Positions 8,559 through 14,361 of a DNA stretch of 64,000 nucleotides are shown in pieces. Position numbers and translations under genes: made by a program. This DNA is from Brevundimonas abyssalis TAR-001. GTDB taxonomy: Bacteria; Pseudomonadota; Alphaproteobacteria; Caulobacterales; Caulobacteraceae. Position 1 is the stretch's first letter. Each line of letters begins with the position of its first letter. The stretch spans positions 1-64,000 of the forward strand of contig NZ_BATC01000006.1 of NCBI RefSeq assembly GCF_000466985.1, in the 5' to 3' direction. The notes beneath the pieces were generated by a model. The model made no database searches. It was not told where the DNA came from and worked only from the letters and a program-made list of their open reading frames with translations.

Positions 8559-8697
8559 GCTCCGTTCCTAGCCGGAGTCGCCCAGGCTGGCAAAAGCCGT
8601 GTGGGTCCATCCCTTGGGATACCTACGCGCCTTGGAAGTCGTGCTCAGCGCGCTGGGGTCGATGACGAGTCCGCGGCTGAGGATGGGGGGACGAGGA

Positions 8698-9105
8698 CTA
8701 GCCGTCCCAGTCCTCGTAAATGGGCGGTCCGAGGCGGTGATAATGAAACCGCGCGTCACGGCCGTTGTAGGATGTGATGAAGTGGCGGAGAAATGATCGA
8801 CCGAGAAGCACCCTGTTGCTCGGGTGTTCCATTTCGATGGCCGCCACGCGTTCCCAGTCATTGAATCCAAGTTCGGGTATGGTCACGCGCGCGGCATAAA
8901 TGGTCGATGGAATGCGCGATCCATCAGCCACCTCCATCGTTGTCTGATCGACTGATTGCAGCCCCAGGCGCAGAGCCACCCTCCGATCAATGCAGATGGT
9001 GGAGGCTCCGGTGTCTATGAGCGCTTCGAGACTTTCGGAGGCTTCACCAGGGCCAGACATGCCGATTTGTATGATCGGCCCCGAAACCCAGATTTCCGGC
9101 CCCAC
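8698..9105 (-). CDS. Retropepsin-like aspartyl protease family protein
   Basis: The 135-residue protein starts at GTG 9105, directly abutting the stop of the upstream gene at 9106. It has a single ALIDTGAS motif (catalytic Asp at residue 31) and a downstream LLGRSFLRHF (about residue 100), the two signatures of clan AA retropepsin-like folds, which act as homodimers. No signal peptide is seen, so it is cytoplasmic. Base composition is visibly less GC-rich than the flanking housekeeping genes. The target is unknown. The tight pairing with the 95-residue gene suggests a functional unit, possibly substrate or regulator plus protease. Confidence 0.8.
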   Translation of the reverse strand: MGPEIWVSGPIIQIGMSGPGEASESLEALIDTGASTICIDRRVALRLGLQSVDQTTMEVADGSRIPSTIYAARVTIPELGFNDWERVAAIEMEHPSNRVLLGRSFLRHFITSYNGRDARFHYHRLGPPIYEDWDG

Positions 9106-9393
9106 CTAGCGGCAAACCGCCAGAAACGGGGCGCTGTCCACCACGCCTTCCGTATGCCGGATGAGAACCTGTTCTCCACGATGGTGGCTATCGGCGTAGC
9201 GAGCGGCTTCGCTGAAATCGGTGAACATTTTTACGAACTGCTCGTGGACCATCAGCACCCAACCGGAACCATGCTGTTCCCGAAGTTGCGAGGCTATCCC
9301 CTCATAAGCGACAATCTCACGCTCTAGACTGGCATTGGTCATGGCGATGTTACCGGCTTGAGTCACAGCGAATCGTAACACACTGAGATTCAC
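9106..9393 (-). CDS. Unknown small protein paired with the retropepsin-like protease
   Basis: The 95-residue product has a central helix-rich part (SLEREIVAYEGIASQLREQ) and a beta-containing segment GWVLMVHEQFVKMFTDFSEAARYADSH. The layout resembles small proteins of the DUF5678 type, where a strand pair is followed by a helix, but I cannot confirm the family. An internal ATG about 16 codons in (MTNASLER) is an alternative start. Its stop is immediately followed by the protease GTG, so the two are almost certainly one transcript. Composition is lower in GC than the neighbours, suggesting acquisition. Confidence 0.65.
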   Translation of the reverse strand: MNLSVLRFAVTQAGNIAMTNASLEREIVAYEGIASQLREQHGSGWVLMVHEQFVKMFTDFSEAARYADSHHRGEQVLIRHTEGVVDSAPFLAVCR

Positions 9394-9445
9394 GCCGGAA
9401 GGTTAACCGGCCCTTTCGATGGGCCTACGCCCCCGCATCGGCGCC

Positions 9446-10982: not shown

Positions 10983-11596
10983 ATGGACCTCCAAGCCAAG
11001 CCCGTCCTGGTCAGCAACGACGGCGACATCAAGCGCCCCAGCCGCGAGCAGGCCATGGACGCCGTGCGCACCCTTATCGCCTGGGCCGGCGACAATCCCG
11101 AGCGCGAGGGCCTGATCGACACGCCGAAACGTGTGGTGGACGCCTATGGCGACTGGTTCCAGGCTATGACGCCGACGCCGCGAAGGAGCTGAGCCGCACC
11201 TTCGAGGACGTGCAGGGCTATGACGACATGGTCCTGCTGCGCGATATCGAGGTGGAGAGCCACTGCGAGCACCACATGGCCCCGTTCCTGGGCAAGGCCT
11301 ATGTGGCCTATGTGCCGGCCGAGAAGGTGGTGGGCATCTCCAAGCTGGCGCGGGTGGTGGAGATCTTCTCCAAACGCCTGCAGACCCAGGAGACCCTGAC
11401 CCAGCTGATCGCCCAGGCCATCGAGGACAACCTCCTGCCCGCCGGGACAGCCGTGCTGATCGACGCCGAGCACCAGTGCATGACCACCCGCGGCGTGCAC
11501 CACCGCCATGTCTCCACCATCACCACCCGCTTCACCGGCGTGTTCAAGTCCGACCCGACACTGCAGGACCGCTTCCTGAAACTGGCCCGCGGCTGA
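10983..11596 (+). CDS. folE: GTP cyclohydrolase I FolE (one-base frameshift)
   Basis: FolE converts GTP to dihydroneopterin triphosphate, the first step of folate synthesis. The N-terminal part ends in [14 protein letters not shown]. The rest, with the zinc site [34 protein letters not shown] and HQCMTTRGV, is in another frame. Adding one G at about 11163 (CAGGCTAT to CAGGGCTAT) joins them into a 204-residue protein of normal size. All catalytic and zinc residues are intact, so the break looks like a sequence error. Confidence 0.88.
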
Positions 11597-12992: not shown

Positions 12993-14188
12993 TCAGGCTC
13001 CCGGCAGCTGAAGCAGATGCTTGGCGATGATGTTGAGCTGGATCTCGGAGGTCCCGCCCTCGATGGAATTGGCCTTGGTGCGCAGCCAGTCGCGGGCCGC
13101 GGCGCCGTCGCGGGACCGCTCGCCTTCCCACTCCAGCGCATCGGCCCCGCCTGCGGCCATCAGCAGCTCGTGGCGGCGCTTGTTCAGCTCCGAGCCGTAA
13201 TACTTCAGCACCGAGGACAGGGCCGGATGGGCGCGCCCCGCCTTGGCCAGATCGCCGGTGCGCTCCAGCGCCAGACGGAAGGCCGCGCCGTCCACGTCCA
13301 GCTCGGCGATGCGGGCGCGCAGCATGGGGTCGTCCAGCCGCCCGGCCTCGTCCAGTCCCACCGCCTTGGCCGCCGTCCGGCCCAGGGCGGCCCCACCCAT
13401 GACCTCGCCCATGGCGCCGATCATGGTCCGTTCGTGGGCCAGCAGATATTTGGCCACGTCCCAGCCCCGGTTCAGCTCGCCAACGAGGTTCGCCTTCTCC
13501 ACCCGCACGTCGTCGAAGAAGGTCTCGCAGAAGGGCGACTTGCCCGAAATCAGGGTGATGGGCCGGGTCGAGACGCCCGGCGTGGTCATGTCGAACAGCA
13601 CGAAGGAGATGCCCTTGTGCTTGGGCGCCTCGGGGTCGGTGCGCACCAGGCAGAAGATCCAGTCCGCCTTGTCGGCGTAGGAGGTCCACACCTTCTGCCC
13701 GTTGACGATCCAGTGGTCGCCCCGGTCCTCCGCCCGCGTCTGGATCCCCGCCAGGTCCGACCCGCGCCCGGCTCCGAATACCCCTGGCACCAGCGGATCT
13801 CGCCGCGCACGATCTCGGGCAGGAAGCGCTTCTTCTGCTCCTCCGTGCCGAAGGCCAGCAGGGCCGGGCCCAGCATCCAGACGCCGAAGCTGTTCAGGGC
13901 CGGCTGGGCCTTGATGCGGCGCAGCTCCGAGGCCAGCACCTTGGCCTGCTCACGGCTCAGCCCGCCGCCGCCGTATTCGCGGGGCCACTCCGGCGCCGTC
14001 CAGCCGCGCTCGCCCATGGTCCGCATCCAGCGCTCGTGGGCCGGGGTGGCGAAGACGGCGTTGCGGCCGCCCCAGATCATGTCCGCCTCGGACGGCATGG
14101 GTTCGCGCACCTCGGCCGGGCAGTTCGCCTCCAGCCAGGCGCGGGTCTCGGCGCGGAATGTCTCCAGATCGGATGCGGGTTCGCTCAT
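12993..14188 (-). CDS. Acyl-CoA dehydrogenase family protein (first gene of pair, one-base frameshift)
   Basis: The N-terminal part (from ATG 14188, MSEPASDLETFRAE) ends in GYSEPGAG. The remainder, SDLAGIQTRAEDRGDHWIVNGQKVWTSYA onwards, is in another frame. Restoring one base at about 13760 (coding-strand GGGTCGGAC to GGGCTCGGAC) gives a 398-residue protein with the full family architecture, including the flavin-contact SEPGAGSD and a C-terminal EGGTSEIQLNIIAK. The family oxidises acyl-CoA; the substrate is unknown. It is cotranscribed with the dehydrogenase gene three bases downstream. Confidence 0.87.
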
Positions 14189-14361
14189 GGGGTCCTCCGT
14201 GACCGCTCGACCGGCGGCCTTCGTCCTGAAGCCTAGCGGGTCGGTGGTCAAAAGCTACCCTCTACGAATGATCGGGAGAAACGCGGTGTGATCCATCGGT
14301 GCTTGACGCAACCGTTCAATCCGGCGACCTGATCCCGCCACAGAACAAGGAAACCGGTCCC

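Follow-up and report, generated by a model that had tools for sequence, protein, structure and literature searches.

Retroviruses are the best-known source of retropepsins, and to our knowledge few prokaryotic retropepsins have been studied. Type II toxin-antitoxin modules consist of two small overlapping genes, show a patchy spread and are also carried by phages. The families COG3577 and COG5550 comprise single-domain peptidases of about 120 residues, of which little is known according to the accessible text of PMC2642776. In Pseudomonas, the retropepsin-like proteases RimB of the rim operon and RloA of the rlo operon were described to work together with products of their operons (accessible parts of PMC11957791 and PMC12239564).

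The two-gene unit described here, located in a window of 64,000 nucleotides (the whole stretch of DNA that was analysed), resembles the Rim and Rlo systems, in which bacterial retropepsin-like proteases act with operon partners. However, as far as the accessible parts of the two papers go, the partners of RimB are an ATP-grasp protein and a phosphodiesterase (RimA), and RloA is a secreted protease whose partner is an inactive transglutaminase membrane protein (RloB), whereas the unit in the window has one small partner. Unlike the rim and rlo operons, the window type also appears to lack a recurrent third gene, since no Pfam family was present in more than two of 102 flanking proteins among the 25 of 136 Pfam families listed. 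With type II toxin-antitoxin modules it shares two small overlapping or abutting genes that are inherited together, a patchy distribution and the occurrence on phages, but the putative toxin would here be an aspartic protease. A full-text literature search by titles and abstracts, with subscription journals mostly outside its coverage, returned no paper pointing to the pairing of protease and partner, no functional paper on DUF5678 (PF18929), the family to which we relate the partner below, and none that combines retropepsin with toxin-antitoxin. Related units have a scattered occurrence in bacteria, archaea and phages, which points to a mode of control for such small, HIV-protease-like enzymes that has received little study. 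A conserved pairing with one partner in two domains of life and in phages would provide a concrete handle on cellular protease control and give DUF5678 a testable role, and the pair rule could help to annotate many hypothetical genes together.

The locus comprises the following features:
9106-9342, minus strand: partner gene, 78 aa, ATG at 9342, stop TAG at 9106-9108 (open reading frame; start from alignment with relatives)
9343-9393, minus strand: possible N-terminal extension of the partner, open frame from GTG 9393, without counterpart in the aligned relative L151
8698-9105, minus strand: protease of the retropepsin-like clan AA type, 135 aa, starting with GTG at 9105 (Pfam gag-asp_proteas and relatives)
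8605-9441, no strand assigned: segment present here and absent from the closest relative G051, containing the two pair genes and little else (blastn)

As stated in the initial annotation, both open reading frames are present, and the stop codon of the partner immediately precedes the GTG of the protease. The two genes share one reading frame. The lower GC content ascribed to the pair was confirmed by an overall GC of 0.585 for the protease and 0.568 for the partner versus 0.691 and 0.689 for the flanking genes, which we take to be rmuC and cysS, respectively, by recognition. The third-position GC is 0.652 and 0.628 versus 0.929 for rmuC and 0.903 for cysS, with a mean of 0.859 (sd 0.053) for 48 long open reading frames of the window that were chosen for values above 0.75. 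Partner and protease alike share 42% amino-acid identity with their counterparts in L151, a locus from a different genome of this genus. Mismatches to L151 at codon positions 1, 2 and 3 number 27, 27 and 54 in the partner, and 55, 51 and 94 in the protease. Since about twice as many mismatches fall on the third as on the first or second position, both genes are genuinely coding, and the partner is no mis-called frame. Its originally proposed length of 95 residues, however, had to be revised: the alignment with the relative L151 begins at the ATG of the latter (MNTVSLEREI), so that ATG 9342 (MTNASLEREI, 78 aa) is most likely the start and GTG 9393 (95 aa) is less likely. A scan of the locus for sigma-70 promoters yielded no site, one terminator-like element was found versus 0.7 expected, and no clear flanking repeats were seen around the unit.

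The protease had been recognized as a clan AA aspartyl protease by the motifs DTGAS and LLGRSFL, and this assignment holds. The catalytic D-T/S-G and hydrophobic-hydrophobic-G motifs are present as ALIDTGAS and VLLGRSFL, and the cut-offs of the retropepsin-like clan AA families gag-asp_proteas (PF13975; 47.2 versus 28.2 bits) and PF13650 (40.1 versus 24.3 bits) are passed. The residues D, T, G and A as well as the later G are invariant in 17 aligned members, and proteases of the DDI1 and retroviral types with solved structures are matched by a profile of 17 protease relatives. By these matches, the window protein belongs to the retropepsin-like proteases of clan AA and has a single domain, the length of which would fit a dimer. 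We assume COG5550 to be its family. The best NCBIfam match of the window protease is TIGR03698, yet with 43.8 bits it stays below the cut-off of 57.35 bits. The protease thus differs from the TIGR03698/COG5550 peptidases, for which the accessible text of PMC2642776 mentions no partner gene, but its relatives resemble them, as all 17 members of protease alignment A4 match TIGR03698 at E ≤0.01.

With the partner alone, family searches gave no family above the cut-off; in Pfam, the 78 aa form had no match at E 1, and the 95 aa form had none at E 10 except an unrelated family at E 0.24. While the window partner itself is without a Pfam match, the partner family shows likeness to DUF5678 in profile and fold. 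Four of 17 family members matched DUF5678 directly at E ≤1 (best 3.9e-6), and the comparison of the family profile with DUF5678 proteins by hhalign resulted in 96.8% (E 3.1e-10), or in 83.4% (E 8.4e-6) with a profile from the six closest partner rows only. A fold model from the 17-sequence alignment (mean pLDDT 84.3), which superseded a poor single-sequence model (pLDDT 52), predicts a helix, two strands, a helix and two strands. In the viral fold search with this model, nothing was found at E 0.001, and a Pandoravirus DUF5678 protein ranked second (probability 1.00, E 0.019). A Foldseek search of the PDB gave no match at E 0.001 and VIA-align against the PDB a best Z of 3.4, which together do not demonstrate a new fold. 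According to profile and model, the partner is a distant relative of DUF5678 in a divergent branch, and we do not place it as a member of this family. The initial description as a 95-residue partner of unknown fold is corrected on both points, since the partner is shorter and its fold resembles DUF5678.

The top fold matches of the partner include proteins of Pandoravirus, of which two bear the name DUF5678, and the domain therefore seems to occur in giant viruses of eukaryotes as well. In Chloroflexota, a DUF5678-like domain was observed at the N-terminus of proteins of approximately 550 aa (L068; similar long frames in L061-L063, L066, L069, L071, L074, L076 and L078). L068, the sole long frame scanned, is a tRNA nucleotidyltransferase and matches DUF5678 with 22.0 bits, just below the cut-off.

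As single-sequence queries, the window proteins gave little in plasmids, viral contigs and phages (phages searched with the partner only), and the partner retrieved no genome but its own from 101 relatives and 385 genomes of the class, and nothing in genome_contigs. Proteins of the relatives had three weak matches in plasmids, all to longer annotated proteins with no DUF5678-like neighbour listed; further proteins of the relatives had none in plasmids, and proteins of the relatives had none in phages. The family was uncovered via a protease alignment after these single-sequence queries. When an alignment of three proteases was scanned against genome_contigs, a partner-like gene was found directly upstream in 17 of 18 protease loci (one truncated by the contig end; 16 distinct). 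According to their record titles, these loci belong to Brevundimonas, Caulobacter, other Alphaproteobacteria, Chloroflexi, Fibrimonadaceae, Flavobacteriales, Spirochaetaceae/Treponema and Saganbacteria among the bacteria, and to Thermoplasmatota and Micrarchaeota among the archaea. The one protease locus without a partner, L049, appears by eye to be of a membrane-anchored type. Among the loci collected in this work, the pairs of L046 and L047 are identical, L034 and L003 belong to a single contig, and one pair is shared by L040 and L029. In 200 genomes of Pseudomonadota with 30 fetched protease loci, a partner is present in 3/3 loci at ≥59 bits, and 0/27 loci at ≤43 bits have a partner match at E 0.05. 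As far as these genomes tell, the pairing is characteristic of one subfamily, not of bacterial retropepsins in general.

Searches starting from the partner led to a similar association. Within the genus, six of 121 genomes carry the partner, and all six have the protease alongside. For Thermoplasmatota, where the count is limited to 30 fetched loci among the matches, a D[TS]G motif lies within 400 nt downstream of the DUF5678 gene in 24 loci, and is followed by a later LLGR-like motif in 18. In control stretches, drawn with the partner and the following 600 nt masked, the D[TS]G motif occurred in 23/4614 and both protease motifs in 0/4614; this masked control strengthens the pairing itself. 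The genomes that supplied the first loci have the protease beside the partner in 8/8 cases, or 6/6 if only independent ones are considered (L054 and L057, duplicates of L038 and L045, enter neither this count nor the tree test described below). In Chloroflexota, 13 of 23 DUF5678 loci lie in frames of at least 276 aa and were excluded; among the 10 stand-alone loci, the protease is intact in five (in L059 on profile evidence only) and absent in three. The protease is frameshifted in the Chloroflexota locus L064 and cut off before a transposase-like open reading frame (by eye) in L080, also of Chloroflexota, and a protease remnant is kept beside the partner in L159 of the Thermoplasmatota. The protease is beside three of seven partner matches in Pseudomonadota, and the four matches without it all belong to one genus. 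Altogether, the downstream motif is missing in 12 of 48 stand-alone DUF5678 loci, among them L059 with its profile-confirmed protease. Short or split protease frames are present in L166, L172 and L176, and L162 was counted on the motif alone. In L115-L118, from four genomes of a single genus, a partner-like gene that lacks a protease lies right behind a PAS-GGDEF-like open reading frame (domain names by eye).

The pair is almost certainly conserved as such. Partner-protease pairs recur in bacteria, archaea and viral contigs, and the partner is conserved, so that the absence of co-occurrence or of conservation, named in the initial annotation as what would speak against its proposal, was not found. 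The proposed protease with a dedicated partner, inserted between its neighbours, agrees with the recurrence of the pair elsewhere and with its appearance as low-GC, variable cargo.

The two genes are also closely coupled. In 34 of 36 loci and in all 17 rows of alignments A3/A4, the open frame of the protease reaches or crosses the stop of the partner, and the offset between partner and protease differs across the family. A fusion by stop-codon read-through or frameshift in the gag-pro style had been considered because the genes in the window share one frame with a single stop between them. This possibility was ruled out by the varying offset, which is better explained by ordinary translational coupling. 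The trees of partner and protease are correlated over 56 pairs (r 0.66), over the 24 Thermoplasmatota pairs (r 0.66) and over the 32 others (r 0.77), with 0/2000 shuffles each, although this correlation ignores kinship by the species tree and the two trees agree on the nearest neighbour for only 28/56 pairs. L053 is placed differently in the two trees, possibly as a result of a partner swap. The genus holds three lineages of the unit, namely that of the window and L151, that of L033, L034 and L036, and that of L153. In both trees, the pair L045 from Saganbacteria is nearest to the archaeal L042, as would be expected if whole units move.

In the closest relative, G051, the two flanking proteins are 98% identical to those of the window, and neither protein of the pair was found. 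Its cysS-rmuC slot (L120, 2480-3238) contains a gene for a DUF2243 membrane protein in place of the pair, and the slot is therefore considered variable. In the blastn comparison of this interval with the window, homology stops near 9442 and restarts near 8604. No rmuC match was located beside cysS in any of 28 further cysS loci from the genus, but seven of these are cut within approximately 400 nt. On viral contigs, six of eight loci (four distinct) have both genes; the exceptions are L190, truncated by the contig end, and L191 without partner, which is the one sighting of a partnerless protease of the paired type with complete upstream sequence. The viral records are fragments, and hallmark genes were examined most fully in record G1000 (L186, L196, L197), a clear phage with integrase, portal and both terminase genes in addition to the pair. 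Here, the pair lies on the strand of the integrase, opposite to portal and terminase, in an isolated, moron-like position. This distribution suggests a mobile and patchy two-gene cargo across bacteria, archaea and phages. A survey of the neighbours in 16 relatives, comprising the 102 flanking proteins, found neither a defence island nor a recurrent third gene. Seven PADLOC families were matched among these proteins, none of which makes up a system in our own reading, and for either window protein the PADLOC defence models returned no family at E 10. A defence role thus appears unsupported by the neighbours.

We hypothesize here, with slightly less than even confidence, that the locus is a mobile unit in which a cytosolic retropepsin-like protease is restrained by its own small DUF5678-type partner. 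The partner, encoded first and in a frame overlapping or abutting the protease gene, would bind the protease during its synthesis and hold it inactive or on its target until a signal frees it. The protease would act in the cytosol as an active dimer, which the partner would restrain like an antidote instead of serving as activator or substrate. A control of the enzyme by the partner is suggested by the overlapping frames, by the joint inheritance and by the fact that the protease is seldom seen alone. Restraint of a potentially harmful enzyme would fit the three decayed units L064, L080 and L159, in all of which the protease is damaged and the partner frame intact, although these units are few and were found via the partner, so that the sampling favours intact partners. 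To judge from the 12 motif-less stand-alone loci and the four Pseudomonadota matches mentioned above, the partner can do without the protease. A more speculative possibility is that of an unnamed two-gene system, an antidote-guarded retropepsin with a DUF5678-fold restraint, which would move as a unit between bacteria, archaea and temperate phages and form a prokaryotic counterpart of retroviral protease control.

A co-inherited pair is equally expected if the partner is an adaptor or a substrate. It is rather unlikely that the partner is a positive subunit, i.e. an adaptor or assembly factor that delivers substrates or stabilizes the dimer of a small targeted-proteolysis system, even though the obligate-looking pairing, the overlap and the correlated descent would suit a two-subunit enzyme equally well, and protease-free partner-like domains such as the tRNA nucleotidyltransferase fusion L068 would suit a general binding module. 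A lone adaptor should be useless, but the partner outlives the protease in the three decayed units, with the restriction on their number and sampling given above. The pairing would also be explained by a single substrate gene beside its protease, whose cleavage of the partner as substrate or precursor frees or destroys a small regulator; the orphan partners L115-L118 could then be regulators whose protease has been lost or replaced by another one. This is improbable, given that no conserved cleavage-site-like stretch was found in the partner, that its C-termini show no clear enrichment of hydrophobic ends (17/30 versus 17/43 background C-termini) and that its core is compact in the model.

Very unlikely, in our view, is a role in defence or phage-borne competition, with the unit acting as a moron or abortive-infection pair. 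Such a role would be in line with the presence of both genes in most of the viral-contig loci, with their arrangement in G1000 and with the patchy occurrence within the genus. It is opposed by the missing PADLOC match of the window proteins and the missing recognized system among the flanking proteins, and outside G1000 the hallmark genes of the fragmentary viral records were less fully checked. The restraint of the protease by its partner remains our preferred reading.

The partner-protease pair is duplicated in tandem in L075, and the Saganbacteria genome G494 has five DUF5678 genes (L051, L055-L058), with a clan AA protease behind each of them. In the window itself, two genes at 10983-11596 and 12993-14251, presumably folE-like and acyl-CoA dehydrogenase-like, respectively, are each broken across two frames, which may reflect either small assembly indels or real decay.
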